From Geomonas silvestris (lineage in GTDB: Bacteria > Desulfobacterota > Desulfuromonadia > Geobacterales > Geobacteraceae), in NCBI RefSeq assembly GCF_014193515.1, contig NZ_BLXX01000006.1:62001-126000 (forward strand): a stretch of DNA of 64,000 nt, written 5' to 3'. Shown here one piece after another: positions 27,714-49,649 of the stretch (its first letter is position 1; every line of letters starts with the position of its first letter). The notes under the pieces are model-generated. The model saw only the letters and a program-made list of their open reading frames with translations. It ran no database searches and was not told the origin of the DNA. Position numbers and translations under genes: made by a program.

Positions 27714-27755
27714 GTAGTCGTCGAGATGTTGAAAGGTAAACGGTTGAAGGTGCTG

Positions 27756-28505
27756 CTAAACCGGCTGGAAGCCGAAGAGCTTCAGCTCGGGGCGCTCGAC
27801 CTGCACCGCAACAGCGGCGCAGTACCCTGCCGGGGCCGGCACGTCGCGCAGGCTCCAGTGCCGGGGTGCCTCGGGATAGCCCTGGTGGGCGATAAGGGCG
27901 GCCGGGGCATCGGGGGCGAGGGAGACCTGGAAAAGGTTGGCGGGCTGGGAGAACCCGGCGCCGGTCCCTTTCAGGTAGGCTTCCTTGCGGGTCCAGCAGC
28001 GGTAGAAGGCGCTTCGTTGGCCAGCCGGATCCAGGGCGAAGAGTTGCTGCTGCTCCGCCGGCGCGAAGTAGCGCTCCGCCATGGGACGGTACTCGAGGTC
28101 CTCGCGGATTTCCTCAAGATCTACCCCCACTTCGCAACCTGCCGCGGTGGCGATGAGCAGGTAGCTGCCGGCGTGTGACAGGTTGAAGCAGAGTGCATCC
28201 GGCTCCAGGTGCTCCGACAGGTGCAACTTGCCGAACTCCCCCTCCGAAAGCAGTACCCTCCCTGGCGCTTCCCCCAGATAGCTTCCCAACAGTTGACGCA
28301 AAAGACCCCGACTGACGATCGCCTGGCGTCGCTTGGGCGGGTCGAGCAAACGCTCACTGCGGGCCAGCTCAGCCGGGGTGATAACGTCTTTTAAGCTCTC
28401 GAGTTCCTGGTCGGTGCAGTCGAGCGGCAGCAGGTGCAGGTGAACCTGATTCGCGCGGGGGAGTGCGGGGAGGTGTTGGGCCAAGGGCGTGGCCGGCCGG
28501 ATCAA
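27756..28505 (-). CDS. Sfp-type 4'-phosphopantetheinyl transferase
   Basis: About 249 residues. Attaches phosphopantetheine from CoA to carrier-protein serines. The family signatures VGVDLEEI (Asp near residue 129) and the downstream W-x-x-KEAYLK (WTRKEAYLKGTG) are intact, as is FNLSHAGSYLLIA. It is the last gene of the pfa-ole operon and almost certainly activates the five ACPs of PfaA, the role of PfaE elsewhere. No ATG fits. A TTG at 28505 lies 4 bases after GGAGG and overlaps the oleD stop as TTGA, the same junction seen between pfaD and pfaA. It is convergent with the TPR-YhaV gene. Confidence 0.9.
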   Translation of the reverse strand: MIRPATPLAQHLPALPRANQVHLHLLPLDCTDQELESLKDVITPAELARSERLLDPPKRRQAIVSRGLLRQLLGSYLGEAPGRVLLSEGEFGKLHLSEHLEPDALCFNLSHAGSYLLIATAAGCEVGVDLEEIREDLEYRPMAERYFAPAEQQQLFALDPAGQRSAFYRCWTRKEAYLKGTGAGFSQPANLFQVSLAPDAPAALIAHQGYPEAPRHWSLRDVPAPAGYCAAVAVQVERPELKLFGFQPV

Positions 28506-29497
28506 GGCCCCTCCGAACGGAAGCTCGCCTTGAGAAGCTTGAGCCCTTCCTCGATGGAGATGCGCGGCTGGTAACCGAGTTCTTCGCGGGCGGCGCTGAT
28601 ATCGAACCAGTGGGCGGTCGAGAGTTCGCTGGCGACGAAGCGGGTCATCGGGGGCTCGCCGGAGAGGCGCAGGGTCTTCCAGGCCACCTCGCAAAACGTG
28701 CCGATGGCGTGGGCCAGGGCCGGCGGGATGCTGCCGGTGACCGGCGCAACGCCGGCGGCATCGAGGATCCGGTTCACCATCTCCCACAGGGGCACCGGCT
28801 CGCCGTTGGAGATGAAGTAGGCCTTCCCGGCGATGGGAGAGCCGGGTTCCAGCCGATCGGCGGCGTTCAGGTGCGCCTGGGCCGCGTTGTCCACGTACAC
28901 CGTGTCGACGAGGCAGGGGCGCTTGCCGATGCGGCGCAGCTTGCCGGCCTTCCCCTTGGCCACGATGCGCGGCACCAGGTGGTTGTCGCCGGGGCCCCAG
29001 ATGAGGTGCGGCCGTAGCGCAACCGTGGCCAGGAACGAAGAGTTTGCCTCGAGCACGAGCTGTTCGGCGATCGCCTTGGTGTGCGGGTAGTGCGCCTCGT
29101 AGCTGGCCGGGTAGCGCAGCTTTTCCGTGCCCCCTTCGATGTCGGAGCCGTCAAAGACGACGCTTGGCGAACTGGTGTAGATGAGCCGCTTGATCTTAAG
29201 TGAGCGGCAGGCCTCCACCACGTTCTGCGTCCCCAGCACGTTCGCCCGGTAGAACTCCTTGTAGTCTCCCCAGATCCCGGCCTTTGCCGCAACGTGGAAC
29301 ACGACGTCGCACCCCTCGGCCGCCTCGTGCACGGCAGCCGGGTTCGCCAGGTCTCCAGGGAACTGCTCGACACCCAGGAAGGAGAGGTGGGGGTACTTCC
29401 CCCGGGCGAAGCTGCGCACCTCGTCGCCGCGCTCGCGCAGCTGGCGCACGATGGCGCTTCCCAGAAAACCGCCGCCACCGGTGACCAAAGCCCTCAT
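28502..29497 (-). CDS. oleD: OleD, NADPH-dependent 2-alkyl-3-ketoacid reductase
   Basis: 331 residues, extended short-chain dehydrogenase of the 3-beta-HSD type. Reduces the beta-keto acid made by OleA to a beta-hydroxy acid. It shows the Rossmann motif VTGGGGFLGSAIV at residues 5-17, VFHVAAKAGIWG, and the catalytic Tyr-X3-Lys in YPHTKAIAEQLV. It overlaps oleC by four bases (ATGA) and the transferase by four bases (TTGA), giving strict operon coupling. In many bacteria OleD functions downstream of OleA and ahead of OleC and OleB. Confidence 0.92.
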   Translation of the reverse strand: MRALVTGGGGFLGSAIVRQLRERGDEVRSFARGKYPHLSFLGVEQFPGDLANPAAVHEAAEGCDVVFHVAAKAGIWGDYKEFYRANVLGTQNVVEACRSLKIKRLIYTSSPSVVFDGSDIEGGTEKLRYPASYEAHYPHTKAIAEQLVLEANSSFLATVALRPHLIWGPGDNHLVPRIVAKGKAGKLRRIGKRPCLVDTVYVDNAAQAHLNAADRLEPGSPIAGKAYFISNGEPVPLWEMVNRILDAAGVAPVTGSIPPALAHAIGTFCEVAWKTLRLSGEPPMTRFVASELSTAHWFDISAAREELGYQPRISIEEGLKLLKASFRSEGP

Positions 29498-31134
29498 TGG
29501 AGCCTCCTCGCCGCCCAGACCGCCAGCTTCTCGCGGAAGATCTTGGCGTTGTGCCGGATGTCGACCGGAAATGCCGGGTGAAACAGTATGGTTTCTATGC
29601 TGTGGGTATGGATGTGGTCGCGGGCGATGGCCAGAAGTTCCGAGCGTACCGCTTCCTGGTCCACCTTGATCCCTTTTTCCAGCTCGACGCAGAGCACCGG
29701 GCGCTGCTCGCCGCGCGGGCCCACGCCGACCAGCGCGGTGCGGAACACCGCCGGGTGCGTGTTGAAGACCGCCTCGCAGGGGATGGTGAACAGGGTGCCG
29801 GAGGCGGTTTCCAGACGGTGCGACTTGCGGCCGCAGAACCATACCCGCCCATCCTCGTCGCGCCCGCCCAGGTCTCCCATGCGGTGGAAGAACGATCCGG
29901 TTTCCGGGTCGGCGATCTTCGAGAGGTGGTCGGCGTCCGGGCGGTTGTAGTAGCCGCGGGTCACCTGCGGTCCCTGGACGACGATCTCGCCGATCTTTCC
30001 GGTGGGGACGCGCAGCGATTCGTCCCAGTAGAAGATGGGATCGTCCGTTATCTCGATCACCTCGAGGCGGACCCCCTCGACCGGCCTCCCGATGCACACC
30101 CCGCCGCCGGCGTCGGTGATGCCGCGGGTGCTCCCGAGGATCTCGCCACTTCCTATGGAGCAGACCGGCAACGCCTCGGTGGCGCCGTAGGGGGTGAAGA
30201 CCTCGGTTCCCGGGGCGAGCAGCGAGGTGAATCGCTCGAGGACCGCGGCGGGGACCGGGGCGCCGGCGGAGATGGCGCGCTTCAAGGTCGGGAGCTTCAC
30301 GCCGTGCTTCACGCCGTAGCGGCTCACCCGGTTGATGAGCGCGGGGGAGCCGAACATGGTGGTGACGCCGTAACCGGTGATGGCGTCGATGATGCTGCGC
30401 GGGTTGACCGAACCGGGGCGGGTGAAATCCATCTCGGGGATCACCGCCGTCATCCCCAGCGCCGGCGCGAAGAGGGCGAAGAGCGGGAAGGTGGGGAGGT
30501 CGACCTCGCCGGGCTGGATCCCGTAGACCTGGCGCAGCGCCTCGACCTGGGCCGCGAAGTTGCCGTGGCTGTACACCGCCCCCTTCGGCGCCCCCGTCGA
30601 GCCGCTGGTGAAGAGGATGGCTGCCACGTCGTCGTGGCGGGTCGGTGCCGGGATGAACGGCTCGTGCGAGGCGTCGCGGTTGATTAGGTCGTTCAGCGTG
30701 CAGCCGCCCCAGAAAAGCCGCGGCCCCACCGTCACCAGGGTCCGGATCGACCCCTTGCCCCAGCCGAAGATGAGCCGGGCCAGGTGCGCCTTGGGGATGC
30801 CGATGAAGGCGTGCGGCTCGGCCTCGGCGAAGCACATCTTCAGGTTCTTGATCCCCAGCCCCGGATCGATGAGCACCGGCACCGCGCCGGCCTTGAAGAG
30901 GGCGAAGGTGAGGGCGAAGAACTCCGGGCTCGGGGTCACCATGAGCACCGTGCGGATGCCGCGGCAGATGCCGACGCTCAGGAGGTTGCGGGCGATCCGG
31001 TCGCTCATCTGGTTCAGCTCGGCAAAGCTCAGCCGGCGTCCCTGCTTGGGAAAGATGATCGCGGTGGTATCCGGCTGGCGGCGCGCCATCTCGGGGAGGT
31101 GGGCGGCGATATTGACCAGGGTTTCGTTCAGCAT
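29494..31134 (-). CDS. oleC: OleC, beta-lactone synthetase (AMP-ligase superfamily)
   Basis: 546 residues, ANL superfamily. Activates the 2-alkyl-3-hydroxy acid with ATP and closes it to a beta-lactone. The AMP-binding P-loop LFTSGSTGAPKGAVYSHGN (about residue 165), TPYGATEALP (about 310), and the C-terminal RMGDLGGRDEDGRVWFCGR hinge are visible. It is placed between OleB and OleD with overlapping stops and starts, as in other ole clusters, which distinguishes it from an ordinary fatty-acid CoA ligase. The start at 31134 lies within the last codons of oleB. Confidence 0.92.
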   Translation of the reverse strand: MLNETLVNIAAHLPEMARRQPDTTAIIFPKQGRRLSFAELNQMSDRIARNLLSVGICRGIRTVLMVTPSPEFFALTFALFKAGAVPVLIDPGLGIKNLKMCFAEAEPHAFIGIPKAHLARLIFGWGKGSIRTLVTVGPRLFWGGCTLNDLINRDASHEPFIPAPTRHDDVAAILFTSGSTGAPKGAVYSHGNFAAQVEALRQVYGIQPGEVDLPTFPLFALFAPALGMTAVIPEMDFTRPGSVNPRSIIDAITGYGVTTMFGSPALINRVSRYGVKHGVKLPTLKRAISAGAPVPAAVLERFTSLLAPGTEVFTPYGATEALPVCSIGSGEILGSTRGITDAGGGVCIGRPVEGVRLEVIEITDDPIFYWDESLRVPTGKIGEIVVQGPQVTRGYYNRPDADHLSKIADPETGSFFHRMGDLGGRDEDGRVWFCGRKSHRLETASGTLFTIPCEAVFNTHPAVFRTALVGVGPRGEQRPVLCVELEKGIKVDQEAVRSELLAIARDHIHTHSIETILFHPAFPVDIRHNAKIFREKLAVWAARRLQ

Positions 31135-32042
31135 CGGCTCTCGCTGGCGGGCACCGGGGAGGTGGTGTCCAGGAAGTTTTCGATAAGCGGGACCACGTCG
31201 TCCTTCATGTCTTCCAAAACGTAGTGTCCGGCGTCCGGGTAGCGGTGCACCTGGGCCTCCGGGAAGCGTTGGATCCACTCTTTCAGGAAGGTGGGGTCGA
31301 AAACGAAGTCCAGCTCCCCCCAGTAGATGGAGATGGGGAGACCGCGGAATTTTACCAGACTATCTGCCACCTGGCTCACCAGGTCGAAGTTGCGGTCCCC
31401 CGGGAAAAGCGGGATATCCTGCACAAAACGCAGGGTTGCGATCCGGTTTTTCCAGGAATCGTAGGGCGAGCGGTAGGCCTGCTGCAGGTCGCGGGGCATC
31501 GGGTTCTTCTTGCAGCCGACGATGGAGGCGCCAACGCTGAAGGCGTTGAAACCGCGCACCAGGAGCGCCCCCAGCGCGGTGTCGCGGCAGATCTTGAGCC
31601 CCAGGGGGAACTTCTTCTCCTTGGGGAGGTGGAAGGCTGCGGTGTTAAGGAGCACCAGGCGCCCGATCCGCTCCGGGTGCCGGGCCGCGTAGGCCATGCC
31701 GATCATGCCGCCCCAGTCGTGCAGGACCAGGGTAATCTTCTCGGTGATCCCCAGGTGGTCGATCAGGCGTTCCAGGTCGTCGACCCGGCGGGGGAGGGTG
31801 TAGTCGTAGCGCTCGTCGCCGGGCTTGTCCGAGAAGCCGCAGCCGATGTGGTCCGGCACGATGCACCGGTATCGGTCGCGCAGGGCCAGGACCAGGTTGC
31901 GGTAGTAGAAAGACCAGGACGGATTGCCGTGCACCATGACTATCGGGTCGCCGGCCCCCTCGTCCAAGTAGTGGTAGGAGAGTCCGTCGAGGTCGAGCCG
32001 TTTGCCGGTGAAGGTGTAGTAGTTTTTAAGCTCCGCAGTCAT
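31128..32042 (-). CDS. oleB: OleB, beta-lactone decarboxylase (haloalkane dehalogenase-like)
   Basis: 304 residues, alpha/beta hydrolase. Removes CO2 from the beta-lactone to yield the cis-olefin. The nucleophile is Asp109 in LHDWGGMIG, as in haloalkane dehalogenases. HGNPSWSFYYRN supplies the oxyanion region and the catalytic His lies in YPDAGHYVLED near the C-terminus. Taken alone it would be annotated as a dehalogenase; the operon identifies it as OleB. The ATG at 32042 shares its first base with the oleA stop (TGATG). Confidence 0.92.
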   Translation of the reverse strand: MTAELKNYYTFTGKRLDLDGLSYHYLDEGAGDPIVMVHGNPSWSFYYRNLVLALRDRYRCIVPDHIGCGFSDKPGDERYDYTLPRRVDDLERLIDHLGITEKITLVLHDWGGMIGMAYAARHPERIGRLVLLNTAAFHLPKEKKFPLGLKICRDTALGALLVRGFNAFSVGASIVGCKKNPMPRDLQQAYRSPYDSWKNRIATLRFVQDIPLFPGDRNFDLVSQVADSLVKFRGLPISIYWGELDFVFDPTFLKEWIQRFPEAQVHRYPDAGHYVLEDMKDDVVPLIENFLDTTSPVPASESRC

Positions 32043-33085
32043 CACCAATCCACCCCTAACATCATGCAGTTAAGCCCGCTGCCGATCCCCAGCATGGCGA
32101 CCCGGTCGCCCTTTTCCAGGATCTCGCGCTCGTCGGCCAAGGCCGCGGTCAAAGGCAGGGATACCGTTCCCATGTTCCCCAGGAACTCGTAGGTGGTGAA
32201 ATCCTTGTCCAGCGGGATCCCCAGCGTCTTCAGGATGGCGCTTTGGTGCGCGCTCCCGACCTGGTGGCAGACCACGCGGTCCACCTCCGAACTCTGCCAC
32301 CCCATCTCCGGGAGGAAGCGCTCCCAGGTGCGCATGCCGAGTTCCACGCCGTAGTTCATCACGTTCACCGCGTCGGTGCTCATCGACTGCACGAAGCCCC
32401 CCTTGCCGTCGGGAGCGACCCCCCAGAGGCACAGGGCGTGGTGTTCCGGAGCCGCCAGCGTCATGCCGCCGCGCAACTTGCGACGCTGCGATCCGGAGAA
32501 GGAGCCGTCGGTGAGCAGGACCGCCACCGCGCCGGAGCCGCCGGTCAAGGTGGCAAGCGAGGAGGCGAAGTTTTCCATGCGCTGGTCGGCCAGCATGCGG
32601 GCGATCATGATGTCGTTGATGTCGCGGGCGCTTTCGCAGGAGACCACGAGCCCTGCGCGGATCTGGCCCAGTTCGATGCGGTTTGCCACCTCGAGGATCC
32701 CGTTCAGGACGCCAAGGCAGGCGTTGGAGAGGTCGAAGACCGCGGCGGCGCCCGAAACCCCGAGCTTGGCGGCGACCCGGCAGGCCGTTGCCGGTTCGAA
32801 CTGTTCCCGGCAGACCCCGGTGTAGACTAGGGCGCCCAGTTCCGAAGCGGCGATGCCGGCTGCGGCGAGCGCCTTCTTGCCGGCAGCTGCGGCGCCTTTG
32901 GAGAGCGGGAAGCCCGGCTCCCACCAGCGCCGTTCGCGGATGCCGGTGAGCGCCTGCAGCTGCCCCGGTGCGAAGTGGAGCGCCTTGTAAAGCGGCTCCA
33001 GCCGCGACTCGAGCTCCGCCGAGGTGACCACCACCGGGGCAAGCTCATAGCCGAAAGACTCGATATATACCTTGGAATACTTCAT
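32042..33085 (-). CDS. oleA: OleA, thiolase-fold head-to-head acyl condensing enzyme
   Basis: 347 residues. Condenses two acyl chains (acyl-CoA, or acyl-ACP here) by non-decarboxylative Claisen chemistry to a beta-keto acid. The nucleophile is Cys123 (LSNACLGVLNG); the supporting His is in VCHQVGSAH and the Asn in FLGNMGTVSLP. A Glu in CREQFEPATA fits the OleA-specific glutamate that reaches into the partner active site. It resembles FabH, but the four-gene ole set settles the call. The ATG at 33085 follows AAGGTG, 65 bases after pfaC. Confidence 0.93.
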   Translation of the reverse strand: MKYSKVYIESFGYELAPVVVTSAELESRLEPLYKALHFAPGQLQALTGIRERRWWEPGFPLSKGAAAAGKKALAAAGIAASELGALVYTGVCREQFEPATACRVAAKLGVSGAAAVFDLSNACLGVLNGILEVANRIELGQIRAGLVVSCESARDINDIMIARMLADQRMENFASSLATLTGGSGAVAVLLTDGSFSGSQRRKLRGGMTLAAPEHHALCLWGVAPDGKGGFVQSMSTDAVNVMNYGVELGMRTWERFLPEMGWQSSEVDRVVCHQVGSAHQSAILKTLGIPLDKDFTTYEFLGNMGTVSLPLTAALADEREILEKGDRVAMLGIGSGLNCMMLGVDW

Positions 33086-33150
33086 TGAGCACCTTAACTG
33101 CTGTGTTGGTTATTTCAGTAATTCACCTAGCTGCTGCCAGAGGTTCCACC

Positions 33151-36100
33151 TTACCCCCGCACCACCTGCACGGTGAAATCGTTCATCTGGTAAATCGCCC
33201 GGCCGTCCACCAAAAGGAACCCGGCAGCGGTCAAAAGACGCTTCCCGTCGTCGGCCCCGGTGATCCAGCAGACCACGGTCACCTCCTTGTTGGTCGGCAC
33301 CACCTGGCCGCGGTAGAGCCAGCGATGACGCTTCTCAAGCGCCACGGAGGCGAACTGGTCCCCCTCCTGCCAGCCCCAGCGCTGAACCGCCGCAAACTTC
33401 ATGAGCTGCTGGAACGACTCGAGCCCCAGCGATCCCGGGGTAACCGGATCCTCGTAGAAATGGGCCTTGAAGAACCACTCCTCCGGGTTCACCACCTTGA
33501 TCCCCTTCACATAGCCAAGCCCGGCAGGACCGCCGTCCGGCACGTACTGGTCGATCCGGTCGATCATGCGCAGCATCTGCTCCGGGAAGGGAGTCTCGAC
33601 CGGGTAGGGGAGGCTCACGCTCCTCGCGACTTCCTCCGCCGTGGGCTGGTACGGTGCCGCCTCGCGGATGCCTACTTGGTTCGCCAGCGCTTCCTTGGCG
33701 AAGAAGCCGAACATGGTCTCGCCCTCGTAGAGGATCCCCTGGCGGTCGGCCACGCTGAAATCGAACTCCTGGATGATCATCCCGCCGCTGGTGGCGACCT
33801 TGGTGAGGGTTGCCGTCGCGGTCAGGGTGCCGCTTTGCGGGGTGACCGGGCGGTGCTGGACCGCGTTCCCTCCCAGGTTTCTAAAGGAGATGTCCGTCGG
33901 GCTGTTCAGCGCCGAGCCGACATAGGCGGCCAACCAGCCGCAGGGCTGCAGGGCGGCCTCCAAAAGGACCGAGAAGGGCATGCGCGGCTGGCGCTCGACG
34001 GCGAAGTACCACTCGTCGACCGGGATGTCGTACTGCGCCTCGGCCATGGCGCCCGCCACCATCTGCCACGGCTCACCCTTGAGCGCCGTGACCCGGTCCA
34101 TGAACTGGAACGGCGGGCCGGGGAGGCGGGCGATCTTGCGCTCGTTATCGAAAATCCGGTAACGCTCACCGAAGCCTTCCGACGGTTTGCCGTTACTGTA
34201 GGCGAGGATCTGCTCCTTGGTGTAGAGCGCCGGTTTGTGCTGGTAAAGGCTGGCCGGGTCGCTGGCAACGGGCTGTGCCGCTACAGCTCCCTGTTTCTTC
34301 CAGAGGTTAAGCAGCATCTCTTTATTGGTGCCCGAGAGTCGCGCCGACATGTTGGTGATCTCGACGATCGGCTTGCCGTCGGCGTACATCAGCGCGTCCA
34401 CGATGGCGTAGGGCTCGGGGCGGTAGCCCAACTCCCGCACGGTCACTTCGTAGCGCACCACCTTGGTGCTTTCCAGCACCTGCCCGCGGCAGCAGAGCTG
34501 GCTGGCGACACCGGGGACCGGCTGCCAGGTGGCACCCTGTGCCTCCGCCACCCATCCCATCCGCAACAGCAGGATGCGCAGGGTGTGCATGCAGCACTCG
34601 TACATGAGGGTGCCCGGCATGACCTTGTCGTCGACGAAGTGGCAGGTGATGAACCAGTCCTGGGGATGGATATCCGCCTCGGCCTGGATGAAGCCCATCT
34701 GGTAGCGCCCACCTTGCGGGTCGAGCTCTACCACGCGGTGCACCAGCTTCATGGCGCCGCCGGGGATGGTGAGAGGCCTACTGATCGAGATGCCGGCAAA
34801 GGCAGCGCCGAAGCAGCCGGCCAGGTCTCCCCGGCGCAGCTGGTCGAGCTGGGCCGCGCTGTAGCGCTCCCGGGACATCGGCACCAGGTCGGTCCAGTCC
34901 GTCGGGCGCTTGCCGTTACGGGGCCTCAGGTCGAGCGCCCCGCGCACGATCCCTTTCCCCGCAGCGAGCTCTTCCGCGCTGAAGAAGCCTGCGCAACCGT
35001 TGCGCATCGACATGAGCGGCTCGCCGTTCACCGTCGCCTCGAAGTGGAAACGGAACAGGTAGGTCTCGCCCTGGCGGAAGAAGCGCTCGATACGGATGTC
35101 GTAGTGGATGGTCTCTCCCGGTCCGGGGAGGTCCCGGTGGAAGGTTACCACTGCGTCAAGAAGCCGATAGACGGCGAGACCGCGGGTGATGAAGTCGATG
35201 CCGAGGTACCCGGAGAGGAAGAGGTCGGCCTGTCCTGCCTCGACCGCGATGCAGGTCGGGATGCGGCCGCCGTCCAGGTACCAGGCGCCGGGGAGCACGT
35301 CGTGCTCGGTGACCACGCGGCCGCTGGTCATCGACTTCGGCTCGCCCTCCACGGTCATGATCCGGTCCACCAGCATGAGCGGCTCGTCGGGGAGGCGCAC
35401 CCTGGTCGGGAAGCTGTCCGCCTCGGCGAAGGCCGGCCCGAGCATCTTGCCGACCGAACCGCGGGCGAACTCGAAGCACATGTCGCGATCAAACGCCGGC
35501 GCCGGTTTGGCTGGCTGGGGCGGAGTCGGTGCGGCGAAAAGCTGCGCTGCGGCGGCCGCGCTGGCAGCAGTATTCGCAACCGCGGCGGCAGGCTCGCTCG
35601 CGGCTGCGGCCAGGACTGCAGGGCCACCGGTCGCCAGAAGCTGCTCCTGAAGCAGAACCTGCAGCTTTAGTGCGTGAGCCATCGAATCTGCTAGGTTTTC
35701 GGCAACCTTCAGGTAGGCCTCGTGCGCCTTGAGGCGCGCTTCCTGCGCTGCGGCAAACTCGGCCAGAAGCGGAGCCAGGGAACCTGCCGAAGCAGAACCG
35801 GGCGCCGAGGTGGTTTCGCCACCGGTTAGGCCAGCGGCCGGATGAAGCTGTAAGGGTTGAGTAGGAGCGATAGCTGCCTCTGGCCGAGCTGCTGTCTGAA
35901 GCTGGACCGCGGCAGGTGCAATGGAAGGACCTGCTTGGGTCGCAACAGCCGCAGGAGCAGCAGGAGCCTTCCCGGCTGTGACGGGTACCGGCGTAGGGTG
36001 TCGTGTCGGTGCTTGATTCACCGGTATTTCCATCCTTGTTGCGGTTACGGTGGTGACAATTCTGTCCGACGGCTCGGCCGACACCATGTCGCCCATTCCG

Positions 36101-40413: not shown

Positions 40414-40415
40414 GA

Positions 40416-43400
40416 TCAGGCTGCCCCCAAGTTGACGGACACGGGGCGCGGCAGCTGGTTACGCTGGAAGGCCTGCTTAAGCGACGGATCGATGACGCAC
40501 TCGTACCCTTCGAGGCGCGCCACCAGTTTGCCGGTGTTGCGGTCCAAAAACTCCATGTCGGCAGCGGCGCCGTGGGCGCTCTCCGAGGTGACCCGGATCA
40601 CGACCTGCACCCCTTCGCGCGGGAACGCCTCCTGGAACTGGCGGTAACGGCCGGCGAAGCAGGGGAGGGAACCGGCGCCGAAGCGCTCGAAGCTCCAGAG
40701 GATCATCATCTGGAAGGCGCTGTCGATGACCAAGGGATCGGTGAGCCAGGCGCTTCTCAGCGGCTGCTTGATCCAGGAACCAGGGGCGGGTGCCCCTTTG
40801 ACGAACGCGGCGATCCCCTTGGCGGAGCAGCCGTCTACCTGCTCGATGCCGTGCAGGTCCGGGCCGTGGAACAGGCGCTCGCGGTTGTAGATCACCCCGT
40901 TTTCCGGGAGGTACGGCGTGCTGGGGAGCTCGGTGATGGAGCGGATCCCCTCCGGGAGGCGGGTCGCCAAAACGATCTCGGCCTTCGCGTGCAAAAGGAA
41001 CCGGTCGTTGGCGCCGCGGCTGGAGAGCTCCACCGGAACCAGGTAGGACGACTCGCGTTTTACCGCGCGGCCGGCCATCACGTTCAGGGTGATGCTGCTG
41101 TTTCCTTCGAAGACGACCCCTTTGCAGATGCGCAGGTCGTTGAAACCGTGGAAGCGGAACCCGGGGTTGCCGTGCAGCGCGCCGTGGGCCAGCCACTCGA
41201 CGATGACCGCCATGGGGAGCACCGCCTTGCCGTCCAGGACGTGCGAGCGCAGGAACGGGTAGTCGGAGATCTTCAGGGTGAGCGAGAAGGCCTCCTGGAG
41301 GGTCTGCTGCTTGGCCGGGGTCGGTGCCGGAGCGGACAGGTCGGGAGTGCCCAGGGTAGCGAGGCAGACGATCTCCACCGGGGCGTCGGCGGCGGCAATC
41401 TCGCGGGCCAGGAAGGCACCCCCTTGCTGCAGGCCGATGACGCCGATCCCTTCCTCGGCGAACACCTTCTTCAGGGCGGCATTGACCATCCCGCCGTCCC
41501 AGGGACCCCAGTTGATGCTGACCGCGCGGCAGTTCTCGCGGCGGCGCGCCTCGGCCTGGGCCAGCTTGTTCAGGACCTCGTTGGCGACCGCATAGTCGAC
41601 CTGCCCCACGCGACCGTAGCGGCCGGTGCTGGAGGAGAAGAGGGCGATGAAGCGCAGGTCGTCGTGGTGGGTCACGTTGAGCAGGGTGCGCAGGCCGTCC
41701 ACTTTGGTGCTGTAGACCTGCTCGAACTGCTCGGGAGTCTTGTCCACGATGAGGCGGTCGGCGAGGACACCGGCGCCGTGTACGATGCCGCGGATCGGTC
41801 CGTGGCTGCGGCGCACGTCGTTAAGCAGGAGTTCCATGGCGCCTTCGTCGCGGATGTCGACCGACCGGTAGCTCGCCTTGGCGCCTGCCTTGGCGATTCT
41901 GGACAAGGTGGAGCGCAGTTCGCGGGCGGCCAGGATGGCGCGGTAGCGCTCCTCTATCTCGCGCGGATGCAGCTTTCCGGGGGCGTTTTGCAGGATGGCG
42001 CGCTTGATCTCGGCTTCCTCGGCGAGGCCGGAAAGCCACTGCGGCTCCTCCGCCGGTTCCGGGCTGCGGCCTAAAAGGACCAGGTAGGGGCGATAGGCCT
42101 CGGCAAGTGCCAGTGCGGCTTCCGCGGTGACCCCGCGACCGCCGCCGGTAATGACGACGACCTCGCCCTCTTTGACCGGCGCGGTGGCGGCAACAGGGGC
42201 AGCCGGCAGCACGGTCTGATTCAGCGCGTAACGGCCGGCAGGAAGGAGCCCGACCTCAACCGGTCCGCGGCGGAACAGCTCCACGGCAACCGCGCCGGCA
42301 GCTTGTGGGGCGTTGGGGAACTCGCCCAGGTCGATCGCCTTGCAGCACACCGCGGGCCACTCGCGGGCCGCCGTCTTGGCGAGGCCGGCCAGACCACCGG
42401 AAAGCGGATCCTTCAGCTTGCTTCCTTGGGTGAAACCGAAGGTGCCGTCCAAGCGGGATGCCGTGACGCACACGGCGCCGTCGGACTCGGCAGACTGGTT
42501 CAGGGCCTTGGCAGCGTTCTTGAAGAGCTGGAAGGCGTTTTTCAGGAATTCGTCGTCGGTGCCGGTGACCGGCGCGCAGATCACCAGGCCGGAGAGCTTC
42601 CCGGTCGGGACAATCTGTGTGACGTTGTGCGCGTCGATCTTGCGGACCGTGCAGCCGTGGTCCAAAAGGATGCTGCAGAGCTCGGCGGTGAAGGCGGAGT
42701 CGTCGTTGGTGACCCAGATCTCCCCGTCGTTGGCGAGGATCACCGCCTCCTGGTTCGCTTCCTCATCGAGCAGGACCGGCACCACGGCGCTCCGCTCCAG
42801 ATCCGGGAGTTCGGCCTGGACCGGCGCCGGAGCTACAGGGGGGGTAACCGGTGCTGCCGCCGGCGCTACGGCGATTTCGGGTGTGCTTGCCGGTGCGGCG
42901 GTCAAAAAGGCTGCGATGTCCCCCAAGGTGCGCAAGGTCCCCAGGTGCTCAGGTCCGATGACCGGTGCTCCAGGCAGGCGCTCCTGCAGGGTGGAGAGGA
43001 TCTCGACCCGCTTGATGGAGTCGATCCCGAGATCCGAATCCATCCCCATTTCCAGCTCCAACATGTCGACTGGGTAACCGGTTTTTTCGCTGACCACCTC
43101 GAGAAGCACGCCGGTCACTTCTGCACCACTCGTCGTGGCAGCGGCAGGAGCGACAACAGCCGCCTGAGGCGCAGACCCGGTTGCCAGGTGGCGAGCAATT
43201 TCGCCCAAGGTGCGCAGGGTTCCCAGGTGCTCCGGGCCGATCGCCGGGGAACCGGGGAGCCGCTCCTGGAGCGTGGAGAGGATCTCGACCCGCTTGATGG
43301 AATCGATGCCGAGATCGGAATCCATCCCCATCTCGAGCTCGAGCATCTCCTGCGGGTAGCCGGTCTTCTCACTCACCACTTCGAGGAGCGTCGCGGTGAC

Positions 43401-46400
43401 AGTATCAAGGTCGCTGCCGGTCTGAGCGGCAACCGGAGCAGAAACCGGAGCCGAGGCCGGTACGGCGGCAGCGACGGGGAGACCGGCGGCCAGATGGCCA
43501 GCGATGTCGCCCAGGGTGCGCAGGGTCCCCAGGTGCTCGGGGCCGATGACCGGAGAGCCCGGCAGGCGCTCCTGCAGGGTGGAAAGGATCTCGACGCGCT
43601 TGATGGAGTCGATCCCCAGGTCCGAGTCCATCCCCATGTCGAGCTCCAGCATCTCGACCGGATAGCCGGTCTTCTCGCTGATGACCGCCAAAAGGGTCTC
43701 GGTGATGGGGAGCGTGGGCGCGGCAGCGCTGGCGGTTGCCACCTGCGCCGCAGCAGGTGCGGCAGGTGCAGCGGCGACGGCGCCGGCCGAAAGGTGTGCG
43801 GCGATCTCGCCCAGGGTGCGCAAGGTACCCAGGTGCTCGGGGCCGATGACCGGGGAGCCGGGGAGGCGCTCCTGCAAAGTTGAGAGGATCTCGACGCGCT
43901 TGATGGAGTCGATGCCCAGGTCGGAATCCATACCCATGTCGAGTTCCAGCATCTCGATGGGATAGCCGGTCTTTTCGCTGATGACGGCTAAAAGGGTCTC
44001 GGTAACGGGGAACGCAGGCGCGGCTGCGGCCGCGGGTGCAGGCTGCACAGCCGCCACGGGTGCGGCAGCCGACGCGGTTGCGGTCGTGGCGGCACCTGCG
44101 CAGAGGTGCGCAGCAATCTCGCCCAAGGTACGCAGGGTGCCCAGGTGCTCGGGACCGATGACCGGGGAGGCGGGGAGGCGTTCCTGCAAAGTTGAGAGGA
44201 TCTCGACGCGCTTGATGGAGTCGATGCCCAGGTCGGAATCCATCCCCATGTCGAGCTCCAGCATCTCAATCGGATAGCCGGTCTTCTCACTGATTACAGC
44301 GAGCAGTGTCTCGGTGACCTGGCCGGAAGTTGCCGCCGGAGCGGCCGGAGCGGCAACCGGGCGTGCCGGTGCAGGCGCCGCAGCTGCAACGGGGGCGGCA
44401 ACCGGTACAGGCGCAGCAGTCGGTATCACGGTGCTTGCAGCCGGGGCGTAAACCGGTGCGGTGAAAGCTGTCGGAGCGGTAGCAGTTGCCATCGGTGCGA
44501 CGGGCTGAGCAGGAATAGCGGCGGCCGGCTGGATTGCAACGGGGAGACCGGAAGCGGTGCCCATCAGCAACTGGTGCTGCTGTTCCAGAAGCGTCTGGAA
44601 GGTCTTCGCGGCTTGCTCCTGGCCCTCGAGGAACCGGCGGTGCAACTGCGCGGTTTCCTCCTGCATCTTCTGCAAGAGCGCCATGCTGTCGCGGGTGACG
44701 CGCAGCGATTCGGAAAGCGCAGTTGTGGAGGCAGCCGGTGCCGCAACAGGCGCCTGGACGTACTGGGGCGCGCTTGCTGCCGGTGCCGGGCGAGGAGTGG
44801 CCTGGGGGGCCACCGAAGCAACCTGGGCCGCCTGAACAGCGGGTGCCGGGGGAGCCACATCTGCAGCTGGCGCTGCCATTATCGGCTTGGGTGCAGCCGG
44901 TGCCTTCTTCGGCTTCGGCTTGACGTAGTTGGCGCCGCTTAGCGGGATGGTGAGCGCGGGCTTTTTGCCGGAGGGCTGAACCGGCCGGTAGTCGCCGTCC
45001 CAGGCGCCCAACCGCACCGGGTAGCCGAGGGTGGCAAGCTGGGCCAAGGTCCGGGCCAGGTCGAGGACGCCGGAGCGTTTGCCGGAGGAGGCGTCCAGAG
45101 CCAGGGCCTGGTGCGGCCGCTCGCCCAGGATCGCCTGGACCAGACCGGTCAACCGGCTGCCGGGGCCCACTTCGACGAAGGTGCGGATGCCGGCTGCGTA
45201 CATCGCCTCGATCTCGGCTACGAATTCGACCGGCTTGGCCAGTTGGTGGGCCAGAAGTTCTTTGGCCTTTGCGGCGTCGCTGGGGTAGAGATCGGCGCTG
45301 GTGTTGGCGTACACCGCAGTATGTGCCGGCTGCCAGTCAAGTTCTTTCAGGGCTGCCAGGAACGGCTGGGCCGCATCGGCGACCAGGCTGCTGTGGAAAG
45401 CGGCGGCTACCGGAAGCTGCTTGTTTGTGATGGAGCGCGCGCTGAAGACGGCAGCGGCGCGGGCGATTTCGGTGCTCTTGCCCGAAAGGACGCACTGCGT
45501 CGGGGCGTTGCGATTGGCGATAACCAGGTCGAGCTTTTCCTGCTCGAGGACCTCGCTCACTTTGGCAAGCGGCGCGGAGACCGCGAGCATGCTCCCCTTG
45601 TCGCCGCTGCCGTCGCCCATCAGGCGTCCGCGCAGCCGGGAAAGGGTGTGCAGGTCGGCCGGCGCGAGTACGCCGGCGGCGCACAGCGCGGTCAACTCGC
45701 CGTAGCTGTGGCCGGCGACGGCGTCCGGGGCAAGCCCGAAGGTGCGCAAGATCTCGAGGGCGCCGAGGCTGGTGGCGCCGATCGCGGGCTGTGCGGCCTG
45801 GGTGGCACGCAGCGCGGCTTCCTGGGCGCTCTTGGTCTCTGCGTCAAAGGCTGATGCGGGGTAGATGAGGTCGGAGAGGAGCTCGCCGCGCTCGGCGAGG
45901 AAACCTTCGTTGGCCTCGGTGAGCGCGTCGATCAGCTGCGGGAACCGGCAGGCCAGATCGTTGAGCATCCCGGTGTACTGAGAACCCTGGCCCGGGAAAA
46001 GCACCCCAAGCTGGCCCGCCTCGGCTGCGCAGGCGTAAAAGGCGCCGTCGGGGGTCTGCCAGGAACCTTGGGGATTTTTCGCGAGCATTGCCTGGGCGTT
46101 TTTCACCAGGGACGCGAGGTTGGTCTTCTTGCGCTCAACCACAAGGGTGAGCCGGCAGGCACCGTTGGCGTCGAAAGAGGCGCGCGAGGCTGCCGCCAGG
46201 GTGCGCAACGCGGTCCAGTTCGCCTCGGCTGGGATCTCGCCGAGCTTCCCGGCAAGGGCAGCCGCGTCGGCACCGGAGAGGGCGATGATCTGGGTGTTGC
46301 CGTCCCAGTCGGTGGCGCTTCTACGGGAGCCGTATTCCTCGAGGACCACGTGGAAGTTCGATCCGCCGAAGCCGAAGGCGCTCACCGCCGCGCGGCGCGG

Positions 46401-47735
46401 GGTTTCGGCGTGGTTCAGCCAGGGACGTTTCTCGGTCGCGAGATAGAAGGGGGAACTGGCAGAAACCACCTCTTTTTGCGGGGTCTGCACCTTTATAGTT
46501 GGCGGAATCACTTTGTGGTACAGCGCCAGGGCGGCCTTGATGAGCCCTGCGGAGCCGGCTGCAGCCTTGGTGTGGCCGATCTGCGACTTTACCGAGCCCA
46601 GGCAACACCAGGGATGCTCGGCCTCGCCGTACACCTCGCGCAGCGCACTTATCTCGACCGCGTCGCCCACCTTGGTGCCGGTGCCGTGAGCTTCCAGAAG
46701 CCCGATGCTCTGCGGGGTAACCTCGGCGTTACGGTAGGCGTTCAGGAGGGCGTTTTTCTGCCCGGAGGCACTCGGGGCGTAGATGGCGTCTCCTTTGCCA
46801 TCGCTGGAGGAGCCGACCCCGCGGACTACCGCGTAGATCCTGTCGCCGTCGCGCTCGGCGTCGGCCAGCCGCTTCAGGACCACGATCCCCAGACCTTCAC
46901 CGAGGATGGTGCCGTCCGCGGAGACGTCGAAGGGCTTCGCGTTGCCGGTCGGGGAGAGTGCCGGAGTCTTGCTGAAGCACATGTACATGAAGATGTCGTT
47001 GAAGGTGTCGATGCCGCCGGTCACCACGATGTCGGCCTTACCCGAGGCGAGCTCCATGGAGGCCAGGTGCAGTGCGCTGAAGGAGCTGGCGCAGGCCGCG
47101 TCCACGACGCAGTTGGTTCCTCCCAGGTCGTACTGCTTGCTGATCCGGCCGGCTACCACGTTCCCCAAAAGGCCGGGGAAGGAGTTCTCCTGCCAGGGGA
47201 CATAGGAGTCGGCGATGCGCTCAACCACGTCCTCGGCGACCGCGTCCTCGACGCCGGCGTCTTTCAGCGCCGAGCGCCAGATCGGGTGCCCAAGGCGCGC
47301 GCCCAGGGGGATGACCAGCTCGAGGGTGCCGGTTACGCCCAAAATGACGGAGGCGCGGGCCTTGTCGAAGGTGCTCCCCGGCCCGTAACCCGCGTCCTTG
47401 AGCGCCTGGCCGGCCGCTACCAGTCCCAAAAGCTGCGAGGTGTCGATCGCCTCCATGATGTTGGGCGGGATGTTGAACTCCATCGGGTTGAAGTCGACCG
47501 GGGTGAGGAAGCCGCCACGGTGGCCGTAGGTGTGGTCGGGGGTCTTCTGGTCTTTATTAAAGTAGGCGTCGACGGACCAGTGGGTCGGCGGGATCTCGGT
47601 GATGGCATCCACTCCCTCCATGATGTTGGTCCAGTAGGCCTGCCGGTCCTCCGCCTGCGGGAAGAGGCAGCCGATGCCGATGATTGCCAGGTGAGTGCCG
47701 TTGCTGGTGCCGGTTTTCGTCTCGTCAGTTTTCAA
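40416..47735 (-). CDS. pfaA: PUFA synthase subunit PfaA: KS, AT, five ACPs, KR, DH
   Basis: 2439 residues. Order: ketosynthase (about 12-465, Cys215 in DAACASSF), malonyl acyltransferase (about 577-895, Ser677 in GHSYGE), an alanine/proline-rich linker, and five acyl carrier domains with phosphopantetheine serines at about 1173, 1277, 1377, 1479 and 1573 (each in DLGIDSIKRVEIL). A ketoreductase follows (about 1848-2135, VVVITGGGRGVTAE), then a C-terminal PKS-type dehydratase fold (about 2150-2430, FLRSHVLDGKAVLPM). This is the carrier and elongation subunit of a polyunsaturated fatty acid synthase. The TTG at 47735 is 8 bases after AAGGAG and overlaps the pfaD stop as TTGA; the open frame upstream of it is not coding. 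Confidence 0.94.
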   Translation of the reverse strand: MKTDETKTGTSNGTHLAIIGIGCLFPQAEDRQAYWTNIMEGVDAITEIPPTHWSVDAYFNKDQKTPDHTYGHRGGFLTPVDFNPMEFNIPPNIMEAIDTSQLLGLVAAGQALKDAGYGPGSTFDKARASVILGVTGTLELVIPLGARLGHPIWRSALKDAGVEDAVAEDVVERIADSYVPWQENSFPGLLGNVVAGRISKQYDLGGTNCVVDAACASSFSALHLASMELASGKADIVVTGGIDTFNDIFMYMCFSKTPALSPTGNAKPFDVSADGTILGEGLGIVVLKRLADAERDGDRIYAVVRGVGSSSDGKGDAIYAPSASGQKNALLNAYRNAEVTPQSIGLLEAHGTGTKVGDAVEISALREVYGEAEHPWCCLGSVKSQIGHTKAAAGSAGLIKAALALYHKVIPPTIKVQTPQKEVVSASSPFYLATEKRPWLNHAETPRRAAVSAFGFGGSNFHVVLEEYGSRRSATDWDGNTQIIALSGADAAALAGKLGEIPAEANWTALRTLAAASRASFDANGACRLTLVVERKKTNLASLVKNAQAMLAKNPQGSWQTPDGAFYACAAEAGQLGVLFPGQGSQYTGMLNDLACRFPQLIDALTEANEGFLAERGELLSDLIYPASAFDAETKSAQEAALRATQAAQPAIGATSLGALEILRTFGLAPDAVAGHSYGELTALCAAGVLAPADLHTLSRLRGRLMGDGSGDKGSMLAVSAPLAKVSEVLEQEKLDLVIANRNAPTQCVLSGKSTEIARAAAVFSARSITNKQLPVAAAFHSSLVADAAQPFLAALKELDWQPAHTAVYANTSADLYPSDAAKAKELLAHQLAKPVEFVAEIEAMYAAGIRTFVEVGPGSRLTGLVQAILGERPHQALALDASSGKRSGVLDLARTLAQLATLGYPVRLGAWDGDYRPVQPSGKKPALTIPLSGANYVKPKPKKAPAAPKPIMAAPAADVAPPAPAVQAAQVASVAPQATPRPAPAASAPQYVQAPVAAPAASTTALSESLRVTRDSMALLQKMQEETAQLHRRFLEGQEQAAKTFQTLLEQQHQLLMGTASGLPVAIQPAAAIPAQPVAPMATATAPTAFTAPVYAPAASTVIPTAAPVPVAAPVAAAAPAPARPVAAPAAPAATSGQVTETLLAVISEKTGYPIEMLELDMGMDSDLGIDSIKRVEILSTLQERLPASPVIGPEHLGTLRTLGEIAAHLCAGAATTATASAAAPVAAVQPAPAAAAAPAFPVTETLLAVISEKTGYPIEMLELDMGMDSDLGIDSIKRVEILSTLQERLPGSPVIGPEHLGTLRTLGEIAAHLSAGAVAAAPAAPAAAQVATASAAAPTLPITETLLAVISEKTGYPVEMLELDMGMDSDLGIDSIKRVEILSTLQERLPGSPVIGPEHLGTLRTLGDIAGHLAAGLPVAAAVPASAPVSAPVAAQTGSDLDTVTATLLEVVSEKTGYPQEMLELEMGMDSDLGIDSIKRVEILSTLQERLPGSPAIGPEHLGTLRTLGEIARHLATGSAPQAAVVAPAAATTSGAEVTGVLLEVVSEKTGYPVDMLELEMGMDSDLGIDSIKRVEILSTLQERLPGAPVIGPEHLGTLRTLGDIAAFLTAAPASTPEIAVAPAAAPVTPPVAPAPVQAELPDLERSAVVPVLLDEEANQEAVILANDGEIWVTNDDSAFTAELCSILLDHGCTVRKIDAHNVTQIVPTGKLSGLVICAPVTGTDDEFLKNAFQLFKNAAKALNQSAESDGAVCVTASRLDGTFGFTQGSKLKDPLSGGLAGLAKTAAREWPAVCCKAIDLGEFPNAPQAAGAVAVELFRRGPVEVGLLPAGRYALNQTVLPAAPVAATAPVKEGEVVVITGGGRGVTAEAALALAEAYRPYLVLLGRSPEPAEEPQWLSGLAEEAEIKRAILQNAPGKLHPREIEERYRAILAARELRSTLSRIAKAGAKASYRSVDIRDEGAMELLLNDVRRSHGPIRGIVHGAGVLADRLIVDKTPEQFEQVYSTKVDGLRTLLNVTHHDDLRFIALFSSSTGRYGRVGQVDYAVANEVLNKLAQAEARRRENCRAVSINWGPWDGGMVNAALKKVFAEEGIGVIGLQQGGAFLAREIAAADAPVEIVCLATLGTPDLSAPAPTPAKQQTLQEAFSLTLKISDYPFLRSHVLDGKAVLPMAVIVEWLAHGALHGNPGFRFHGFNDLRICKGVVFEGNSSITLNVMAGRAVKRESSYLVPVELSSRGANDRFLLHAKAEIVLATRLPEGIRSITELPSTPYLPENGVIYNRERLFHGPDLHGIEQVDGCSAKGIAAFVKGAPAPGSWIKQPLRSAWLTDPLVIDSAFQMMILWSFERFGAGSLPCFAGRYRQFQEAFPREGVQVVIRVTSESAHGAAADMEFLDRNTGKLVARLEGYECVIDPSLKQAFQRNQLPRPVSVNLGAA
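42898..44300. repeat. Five tandem ACP-encoding repeats within pfaA
   Basis: Five highly similar segments of about 200 bases (near 44100-44300, 43790-43999, 43490-43700, 43193-43400 and 42898-43100) encode the ACP domains, separated by variable Ala/Pro linkers. The serine codons are 282-312 bases apart. ACP1-3 share ETLLAVISEKTGYP(I/V)EMLELDMG, while ACP4-5 use LLEVVSEKTGYP and LELEMG, suggesting two duplication groups. Confidence 0.9.
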
Positions 47736-49396
47736 CAAAGGTACTCCTTGATCTGTGCGATTTCGAGGGGGTGCTGGTCGAGGGCCTCCTGCGGCAGGGC
47801 GATCCCCTGGCTGCGCAGGAAGTTGGCGCGGTTCAGCCCGGCGGCTCCGTGCAGGATGTTGAGTGCCACGGTGACCACCTTGCGCTGTTCCGGTGCCGCC
47901 AGGAAGGTCTCGGCGGTCCACTCGTTGAACGCGCCCATGGAAGGGCCGCACCAGACCTGGTAGTCCATGCGGCGCTCGCTCTTGCCGTCCTTGGCCCAGT
48001 GTGCAGCCATCCCCAGGTACCAGCGGAACACCAGCGCCATCTGGTGTTTGGGATCCCGCTCGCTGCGCTCGACCTGCGCGGGATCGCGTTTCAGGAAGTA
48101 GGCGCGGGTGTCGCGCCAGATGTCGTCAAAAGATGCCTGGAAGAAGGTCTTCTCCAGTTTCTCGCGCTCGGCGGCCGGGATCTCGTCCAGGCTCCTGTAG
48201 CCGCGGTAGACCTCGTAGAGCTTCTGGGCGCGCATCGGGAACATGGTGCCGCGCTTTAAAACCTGCACCGTGACCCCCATCTCGAACATGTCCGCTGCGG
48301 GAGCCATGGTGACGTCGGCCTGGCGGGTTTCGGCGAGCATGGTGCGCACCAGGTCGGAGGTGCCGGATTCGACGCAGGCTTGGTTCACCGATCCGGTCAT
48401 GATGTATGCGGCGCCCATGGCAAAGGCGGCCGAGGCGGAGGCCGGAGTGGAGATGCCGCCAGCCAGGCCGACCCTCAGCTTGCAGTCGTAGCCGTATTGG
48501 CGCTCCAGCTTGTTGGCGAGCGAAAGGATGGTCGGGAAGAGCGCGATGGCCGGGCGGTTGTCGGTGTGGCCGCCGGAGTCTGCCTCGGCGGTGACGTCCT
48601 GGGCCAGCGGCACCTGTGCGGCGAGCTCAGCCTGCTCGGCGGTGAGCGAGCCGCTCGCTACCAGCTGGCGCAGCAATTTTTCCGGTGCCGGCGAGAAAAA
48701 CTTGGCCGCCAACTCCTCTCGGGAGACCTTGGCGATGATCCGGTTCGGGGTGATGATGCGGCCGTCCGGGGCGCGCCTGATGCCGTGCAGCCGGTAGCGC
48801 ACCAGGGGGAGGGTAAGCGCCAGGAAGGCCGAGGCCTCGACGATGCGCACACCTTTGCGGATGAAGAGTTCGGCAAGCTCGCGCTCGAGGTCGGGCTCGT
48901 GCGGCGAGTGGATCAGGTTGAAACCGTAGGGAATATCGCCCAGGGAGGCGTGCAGGCGGTCTGCTGCGGCCTCGACCTGGGAGAGCGGCAGCCCTGCGGC
49001 ACCGAAGAACCCGAGCATCCCGGCGCGACCGAGTTCCTCGGCGATGGCGGCGGAGCTGATCCCCTTCGCCATGGAGCCTGCGATGTAGGGGTAGCGGATG
49101 CCGATCTCGCGGCAGAAGCTGGGATCGCCCAGGTGCTCCGGCAGGCAGGGCGGGGCGAAGCCGGCCAGCGTGTGACCGTTTTCCAGGCCGGTTCCGAAGT
49201 GGCCGACGCCGCCCAACTCGGCGGTGACGGTCCCTTTCTGCTCGACGAGGTACAGGGGGCGGCGCACGTGGCGCAGTGCCTCCTTCAGGCTTAACTGGCC
49301 GGTGCCGGGGGAATCGGCAGGGGCAGACCAGGATCCGAGACGCTCTTTTCTGTCAGCGTGCTCGGAGGTGTCACACCAGGGCGAAAAACGGTTCAA
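47732..49396 (-). CDS. pfaD: PfaD, FMN-dependent enoyl reductase of the PUFA synthase
   Basis: 554 residues of the 2-nitropropane dioxygenase/enoyl reductase type fused into the PfaD family. Saturates selected double bonds during PUFA chain extension, working in trans with PfaA and PfaC. It shows YPYIAGSMAKGISSAAIAEELGRAGMLGFFGAAGL near residue 105, the FMN-phosphate region GLAGGISTPASASAAFAMGAAYIMTGS, and a long C-terminal tail (WCGPSMGAFNEW). The start is TTG at 49396, 8 bases after GGAG. It is the first gene of the eight-gene pfa-ole operon. Confidence 0.93.
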   Translation of the reverse strand: MNRFSPWCDTSEHADRKERLGSWSAPADSPGTGQLSLKEALRHVRRPLYLVEQKGTVTAELGGVGHFGTGLENGHTLAGFAPPCLPEHLGDPSFCREIGIRYPYIAGSMAKGISSAAIAEELGRAGMLGFFGAAGLPLSQVEAAADRLHASLGDIPYGFNLIHSPHEPDLERELAELFIRKGVRIVEASAFLALTLPLVRYRLHGIRRAPDGRIITPNRIIAKVSREELAAKFFSPAPEKLLRQLVASGSLTAEQAELAAQVPLAQDVTAEADSGGHTDNRPAIALFPTILSLANKLERQYGYDCKLRVGLAGGISTPASASAAFAMGAAYIMTGSVNQACVESGTSDLVRTMLAETRQADVTMAPAADMFEMGVTVQVLKRGTMFPMRAQKLYEVYRGYRSLDEIPAAEREKLEKTFFQASFDDIWRDTRAYFLKRDPAQVERSERDPKHQMALVFRWYLGMAAHWAKDGKSERRMDYQVWCGPSMGAFNEWTAETFLAAPEQRKVVTVALNILHGAAGLNRANFLRSQGIALPQEALDQHPLEIAQIKEYLC

Positions 49397-49571
49397 AGAT
49401 GCTTCTCCTGTTGCCAGCGAATCTGAACGGACGCGTTTGATTTTACGGCGACTCTTAAGGGACAGAGTTCGGGGTGTGAAGTGGCTCGGAGCAGGAAGGT
49501 GCGCTTCGCTTTGCAGTACTGCCTGACCTTTTGACCATGAAGGTGCCGCCCACTATAAACAGAGCATTTTT

Positions 49572-49599: not shown

Positions 49600-49649
49600 A
49601 GACGCAGCTTAAGCGCTCTTTTTTTCGATCTCTGAATGATGCTTCGCGG

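Follow-up and report, generated by a model that had tools for sequence, protein, structure and literature searches.

A Probable Eight-Gene Operon of a PUFA Synthase and OleABCD in Geomonas silvestris, and an OleA Clade Found with Such Synthases

In the iron-reducing soil bacterium Geomonas silvestris, a stretch of 64,000 nt (hereafter the window, on whose numbering all window coordinates are given) carries the genes of a polyunsaturated fatty acid (PUFA) synthase, followed by oleABCD, the genes of head-to-head hydrocarbon synthesis, and a phosphopantetheinyl transferase. We consider it likely that the eight genes form one operon in which a Type I PUFA synthase and OleABCD make a long polyunsaturated hydrocarbon, most likely hentriacontanonaene (C31:9) or a near homologue. 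This reading is based on gene content and gene order, on the active-site residues present in OleA, and on how the two systems occur together, all observed here, and on two points taken from print, namely that G. bemidjiensis makes C31:9 and that its fatty-acid profile lists no PUFA at 0.5% or above. The arrangement, the product, and the idea of supply are already published for a member of the genus; we add here how widely PfaD and OleA are paired, that they stay paired in genomes where the genes are not linked, and which OleA clade goes with the pairing.

Results

Gene Content and Packing of the Operon

A sequence-only reading of the window had placed eight genes on one strand between 27756 and 49396, in tight packing with a single gap of 65 bases. 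The protein families and start codons bore this out, with all eight genes on the minus strand:

pfaD, 47732..49396, minus strand: enoyl reductase-type subunit of 554 aa with a TTG start and AGGAGA upstream of it; TIGR02814 (pfaD_fam) 637 bits, cut-off 449
pfaA, 40416..47735, minus strand: ketosynthase (KS), malonyl transferase (MAT), five acyl carrier proteins (ACPs), ketoreductase (KR), and polyketide synthase-type dehydratase (DH); 2439 aa from TTG 47735; TIGR02813 1849 bits, cut-off 1010
pfaC (pfaBC fusion), 33151..40413, minus strand: KS, a second KS resembling a chain length factor (CLF), acyltransferase (AT), and four FabA-like domains; 2420 aa from ATG 40413; Pfam on the whole protein and on segments
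pfaC-oleA gap, 33086..33150, minus strand: 65 bases, the largest gap of the operon, without promoter or terminator consensus
oleA, 32042..33085, minus strand: head-to-head condensing thiolase of 347 aa from ATG 33085; NF006720 503 bits, cut-off 285
oleB, 31128..32045, minus strand: alpha/beta hydrolase, the expected beta-lactone decarboxylase from its position after oleA; matches Abhydrolase_1, with haloalkane dehalogenase models under their cut-offs
oleC, 29494..31134, minus strand: expected beta-lactone synthetase of 546 aa from ATG 31134; NF006754 780 bits, cut-off 478
oleD, 28502..29497, minus strand: expected 2-alkyl-3-oxoalkanoate reductase of 331 aa from ATG 29497; NF042422 453 bits, cut-off 580; 3Beta_HSD 201 bits
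transferase (pfaE-like), 27756..28505, minus strand: Sfp-type phosphopantetheinyl transferase of 249 aa from TTG 28505; PF01648 66 bits and AASDHPPT_N 28 bits, both over their cut-offs

The gene labelled pfaC in the sequence-only reading is indeed present, but it turned out to be a pfaBC fusion. Its KS, CLF, AT, and DH domains were all found, as were the KS, MAT, several ACPs, and KR of PfaA, where a Pfam search gave five PP-binding (ACP) stretches and a PS-DH domain. The second KS-like domain of pfaC has Glu in place of the cysteine of the first, which we read by eye as CLF-like, and the matches to its four FabA-like domains alternate between weak and strong in Pfam. Neither a thioesterase nor an acylglycerophosphate acyltransferase domain was listed by Pfam in PfaA or PfaC. 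Judged by domain content, the synthase would thus belong to the Type I secondary lipid synthases, the definition of which by Shulse and Allen also includes KS phylogeny. OleC passes the broader model NF006754, and the best match of OleD is the OleD model, though under its cut-off. The genome holds just one other PF01648 match, in a 201-codon frame on contig C4.

At six of the junctions the genes overlap or lie 2 bases apart, and at one (pfaC/oleA) they are separated by the 65 bases. The likely start of pfaA, TTG 47735, overlaps the pfaD stop by 4 bases, or by 7 if the start is TTG 47738; an upstream GTG at 47951, to which the open frame reaches, was rejected in favour of these. The ATG of pfaC lies 2 bases past the end of pfaA, oleB starts within oleA at either GTG 32045 or ATG 32042, and the remaining overlaps are of 7 bases (oleC/oleB), 4 bases (oleD/oleC), and 4 bases (transferase/oleD). 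Because of this packing we expect the eight genes to be read as a single transcript. A scan of 49380-49720 and 27600-33200 found neither a sigma-70-type promoter nor an intrinsic terminator.

PfaD and OleA Occur Together

Across 58 relatives, our own genome included, a strong PfaA was found in 46 and an OleA over cut-off in 45; both were present in 45, PfaA only in one (G053), and neither in 12. The limit for a strong PfaA was E under 1e-260, and 40 of the 46 also passed the curated cut-off. A class sample of 146 genomes gave a similarly strict picture, with 95 genomes holding both OleA and PfaD, none OleA only, 3 PfaD only, and 48 neither. PfaD was present in 98 of these (96 over cut-off, one split, and one fragment) and OleA in 95; the class genomes are related, and the counts are not independent events. 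Two genomes were kept despite a PfaD below the cut-off (G116 with 275.6 bits and G038 with a split gene), while three with PfaD matches of 19.5-30.7 bits (G067, G078, and G150) were counted as lacking it. The OleA and PfaD matches considered were those within E limits of 1e-80 for class OleA and of 1e-40 and 1e-60 for the phylum sample described below. In a control of 14 well-known genomes, the OleA model passed its cut-off in none.

The PfaD-only genomes were considered as counterexamples and rejected, as all are contig-end cases: one holds the start of oleA and two are contig-end pieces. In G092, oleA is cut by the contig end directly after pfaC and both genes are therefore present; the contigs of G112 and G053 end inside pfaA and that of G116 starts inside pfaD, and these give no verdict on oleA.

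Linked and Separate Loci

Of the class genomes that hold PfaD as well as OleA, 62 of 95 have oleA at a distance of 13,964-23,871 bases downstream of pfaD on the same strand, and the pfa-ole arrangement is thus more than chance. The second PfaD of G090 and that of G157 were dropped from this count. The remaining genomes comprise 3 with the loci more than 100 kb apart on one contig and 30 with the loci on different contigs, some of them through breaks. The 3 on one contig are genomes assembled in 1-2 contigs. In G094, G095, and G155, pfaC is 10-11 kb from oleA, while pfaD and the neighbouring pfaA lie at a distance of 109-137 kb. Two further genomes (G068 and G074) carry pfaD-pfaA-pfaC and oleABCD plus transferase as separate loci well inside contigs, and the transferase thus stays with ole and not with pfa.

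To these we added named loci found by OleA alone, using the best 80 of 143 for all counts. In 71 of the 80, pfaC was found upstream of oleA at a distance of at most 400 bases (68 by automatic count plus L009, L077, and L081, whose frames show pfaC), including loci from Elusimicrobiota, Verrucomicrobiota, and Planctomycetota. Nine loci lack an adjacent pfaC; eight genomes behind them were searched (L047, L053, L061, L065, L066, L069, L071, and L072, the last being the same organism as L073), and PfaD was over cut-off in all eight. The unlinked cases with PfaD but no adjacent pfaC include three Acidobacteriota and one metagenome-assembled genome (MAG) of Verrucomicrobiota. In L069 and L072, two of the Acidobacteriota, PfaD gave more than one match, partly in frames of at least 800 codons, and the best PfaC-like match is only 39-40% identical; their Pfa is therefore a looser relative. 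A PfaD search of 16 genomes of named loci gave 15 over cut-off and one fragment (L077).

Downstream, oleB follows oleA in 79 of the 80 loci, and the order loosens from there. Among those 79, oleC is at most 500 bases away in 48, at 617-7743 bases in 12, and not found in 14, with 5 loci too short to tell; oleD follows oleC in 51 of the 60 loci with oleC, some of the other 9 ending too soon; and the transferase is present in 31 of the 51 loci with oleD and absent in 14, the other 6 being too short to tell. The genes after oleB in 15 loci looked mutually unlike by eye. The steady core is thus pfaD-pfaA-pfaC-oleA-oleB, with oleC, oleD, and the transferase often set apart by intervening genes or not found nearby. 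Over 61 loci, the distances of PfaC and OleA correlate (Mantel r 0.92).

A few loci depart from the common form. In two Planctomycetales MAGs (L077:2930-8188 and L081:1-4047), pfaC is short (1753 aa where complete), overlaps oleA, and gives a good alignment with the window pfaC only as far as residue 2044 or so; one FabA pair therefore seems to be missing, and a different unsaturation pattern would be expected. The OleA genes at L078:8748-9908 and L080:10001-11161 are about 40 codons longer than the window oleA, the extra stretch in L078 lying near position 225, and L078 gave no oleB match. The second PfaD-family match of G090 (L096, C1:3671000-3672313) lies next to several KS domains in a frame of 798 codons, and this locus probably represents a trans-AT polyketide cluster.

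An OleA Clade Associated with Pfa

Among the best 80 of 143 named matches, from which records of our own genome may have been excluded, Geomonas limicola Red745 has the OleA closest to that of the window (97%), all others being at most 89% identical. The G. limicola gene (L002, 281538-282578 of its contig 7) coincides in place with that of G008, a genome labelled as belonging to the same genus as the window, which is thus most likely Geomonas in that classification; the genus there also includes Citrifermentans bremense, for which L005 and G006 agree in the same manner. We built a tree of 67 OleA rows, two of which are identical. In it, 42 rows from five phyla form one clade with support 100/100, and every one of the 42 belongs to a genome that has PfaD or in which pfaC adjoins oleA. 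Outside this clade are 16 rows without PfaD, 7 rows from PfaD genomes (families f96 and f55), one f96 row without PfaD, and the Xanthomonas campestris enzyme. Among the rows sampled, an OleA of the clade is always accompanied by Pfa, but a genome with PfaD need not have an OleA of the clade. The families f96 and f55, with PfaD and an OleA outside the clade, may represent a second origin of the pairing.

We then compared the 42 clade rows with the 16 rows without PfaD and counted as separating any alignment column with at least 90% of one letter in the clade and at most 10% of that letter in the 16. There were 20 such columns. In window numbering, Gln42, Gly182, and Trp221 are present in 42 of 42 clade rows, whereas the 16 rows have Arg at 42 (16), Ile at 182 (16), and Gly (14) or Ser (2) at 221. 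Cys123, Glu97, His274, and Asn304 are kept in all 67 rows and match the four catalytic residues of the X. campestris enzyme. The Cys is described as catalytic (PMC6463001), and the title of a cited paper names Glu117 of OleA as a catalytic residue.

The solved structure nearest to the window OleA is 3fk5, in which position 182 aligns with Leu183, a residue that probably lines an acyl channel. Leu183 is one of 27 contact sites given for 3FK5 in a figure legend of PMC11040732, where a further entry, R178, mismatches the letters of 3fk5. Of the 20 separating columns, 18 were testable after removal of two gap columns of the 42-row clade, and 4 of the 18 coincide with the contact sites (hypergeometric P = 0.046, one-off and uncorrected), a weak overlap that may be taken as a hint only.

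Base Composition and Neighbouring Genes

In 4-kb steps, the GC content is 65.6-67.6% across 28001-48000, the operon, vs. 57.9-62.9% in the remaining steps of the window. Long antisense frames inside the operon, such as 35857-39930 on the plus strand, are probably a result of this high GC. A convergent gene at 26382-27713 on the plus strand ends 42 bases from the end of the operon, and its C-terminal part matches the YhaV toxin family with 82 bits. On the other side, a GDSL lipase/esterase gene (49650-50312, minus strand) lies 253 bases upstream of pfaD on the same strand, outside the packed operon.

Discussion

In the route that we propose, the terminal transferase would arm the five ACPs of PfaA, and PfaA, PfaC, and PfaD would build a C16 tetraene on ACP. 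OleA would take two such chains, probably straight from ACP, and condense them head-to-head, after which OleD would reduce the product, OleC close the beta-lactone, and OleB release CO2. The hydrocarbon is probably the main or only product of the synthase in Geomonas, and the expectation for G. silvestris would be the same. The synthase looks dedicated to the hydrocarbon because of the PfaD/OleA pairing, the OleA clade, and the fatty-acid profiles of five strains of the group, none of which shows a PUFA reaching 0.5%.

Much of this has precedents. In Shulse and Allen (2011; PMC3098273), the Type I synthase is defined by the pfaBC fusion, occurs in Geobacter and others, and is proposed to supply ole precursors, the ole genes being often linked; G. 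bemidjiensis is reported there to make hentriacontanonaene. The window shares with this type the fusion, a deltaproteobacterial host, the suggested supply of olefin precursors, and the ole linkage. The review of Yoshida et al. (2016; PMC4882568) gives a tandem array of pfaDABC, oleABCD, and pfaE for G. bemidjiensis, with C31:9 made. That cluster, from strain Bem, is like the window in gene order and content; it belongs to another species and the review lists pfaB and pfaC separately where the window has one fused gene, and no other difference in kind was found. A new kind of gene cluster was therefore rejected as an explanation, and any novelty of the layout is forestalled by these two papers. 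A 2019 proposal placed G. bemidjiensis in Geomonas, the strains of which are described as strictly anaerobic iron reducers (PMC6773877).

Other systems share parts of the design. In fadD-minus Escherichia coli, OleA of Shewanella pealeana together with pfaA-E gave a 31:8 ketone, and OleA was concluded to link both pathways in Shewanella, with direct contact to the Pfa ACPs, or an ACP-bound substrate, argued for (Allemann et al. 2019; PMC6463001). The sequence-only reading had contrasted the operon with bacteria in which Ole draws on a separate PUFA pool, a contrast that this work undoes: in Shewanella, too, the chains that OleA condenses to C31:9 appear to come from Pfa ACP. A Pfa-dependent hydrocarbon is in print for S. 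oneidensis (PMC6463001), whereas for G. bemidjiensis only the product is reported (PMC3098273 and PMC4882568). The Shewanella and Photobacterium systems differ from the window in having separate pfaB and pfaC (Type A in PMC3098273), an associated pfaT thioesterase, and eicosapentaenoic acid (EPA) as a product. The Xanthomonas-type OleABCD has the same four enzymes, chemistry, and OleA catalytic residues as the window but is fed by type II fatty-acid synthesis and not by Pfa (PMC6463001).

Could the synthase instead make free or membrane PUFA, as in Shewanella or Moritella, with the hydrocarbon as a side branch? The domains of PfaA, PfaC, and PfaD do match PUFA synthases, and Shewanella makes EPA as well as C31:9, while in Photobacterium profundum SS9, which has ole genes, EPA is made and no C31:9 could be detected (PMC6463001). 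Yet in Table 3 of PMC6773877, which has a limit of 0.5%, the fatty acids of G. bemidjiensis and four Geomonas strains have one double bond at most, and PfaD without OleA occurs in the class sample only at contig ends; we regard this explanation as unlikely. It is a good deal less probable still that OleA uses acyl-CoA from the ordinary fatty-acid pool to make saturated or monounsaturated olefins, the operon being only co-regulated. Earlier work named acyl-CoA as the OleA substrate (PMC6463001 and PMC7064751) and OleAs without PfaD occur in the phylum, but the latter are outside the Pfa-associated clade and differ from it at 20 columns, and G. bemidjiensis is reported to make C31:9 (PMC3098273 and PMC4882568). 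A neutral cassette, linked and co-inherited by hitch-hiking without functional dependence, would account for the linkage in 62 of 95 class genomes, and the correlation of PfaC and OleA distances is also expected from shared descent alone. Such a cassette hardly explains why the pairing is kept where the loci are apart, as in the three genomes with over 100 kb between them, in G068 and G074, and in the three Acidobacteriota and the Verrucomicrobiota MAG, and we give it very little credence.

Several points weigh against an operon of Type I synthase and OleABCD dedicated to a polyunsaturated hydrocarbon. The PfaB model TIGR02816 gives the pfaBC fusion 94 bits, under the cut-off of 144; OleC scores 686 and 669 bits on the olefin beta-lactone synthetase models with cut-offs of 900 and 850, and OleD 453 and 417 bits on specific NCBIfam models with a cut-off of 580 each. 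The chain length is not readable from sequence. Outside the class, Pfa and Ole do separate: the phylum sample of 345 genomes contained 24 with both genes, 6 with PfaD alone, and 17 with OleA alone. Of these last 17, the OleA of one groups with family f96, and the other 16 belong to clades other than the Pfa-associated one. Among the 14 control genomes, the PfaD model passed its cut-off in Bacillus subtilis, and PfaD alone is thus not proof of a Pfa synthase. The fatty-acid table in PMC6773877 lists only components of at least 0.5%, has three unidentified peaks, and describes cells grown at 30 C, and a little PUFA may therefore be present. In SS9, finally, the pfa and ole operons are adjacent, and the lack of detectable C31:9 beside EPA (PMC6463001) means that a genome can have both gene sets and yet lack the product. 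This case, together with the pairing that holds where loci are apart, also removes the force from the claim that physical coupling is a strong statement about substrate supply. Of the sequence-only interpretation as a whole, then, the dedicated assembly line is supported by the strict way in which PfaD and OleA go together in the class sample, by the OleA clade that is Pfa-only in our sample, by the lack of PUFA at 0.5% or more, and by the C31:9 reported for G. bemidjiensis with the same gene order; the separate-pool contrast, the coupling argument, and novelty of the layout are not supported.

Beyond the operon itself, we tentatively propose, as a possibility that falls somewhat short of an even chance, that a PUFA synthase with a single purpose is unloaded solely by a distinct subfamily of OleA, one that has become specialised, with Gln42, Gly182, and Trp221, for polyunsaturated C16 chains bound to ACP. 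Enzyme and synthase would have spread together, whether linked or unlinked, and reached five or more phyla, strict anaerobes among them. A limited literature search, which says little, found no printed statement of the 42-row clade; Sukovich et al. (2010), cited in the papers above for the C31:9 product, may group OleAs too. If the proposal is true, a PUFA synthase in those lineages means hydrocarbon and not membrane fatty acid. The window is another copy of a known anaerobic route to polyunsaturated hydrocarbon, and the OleA clade gives a testable rule, predicting which genomes should make such hydrocarbons. Geomonas and other strict anaerobes may also serve as systems for the study of a PUFA synthase in cells free of PUFA lipids.

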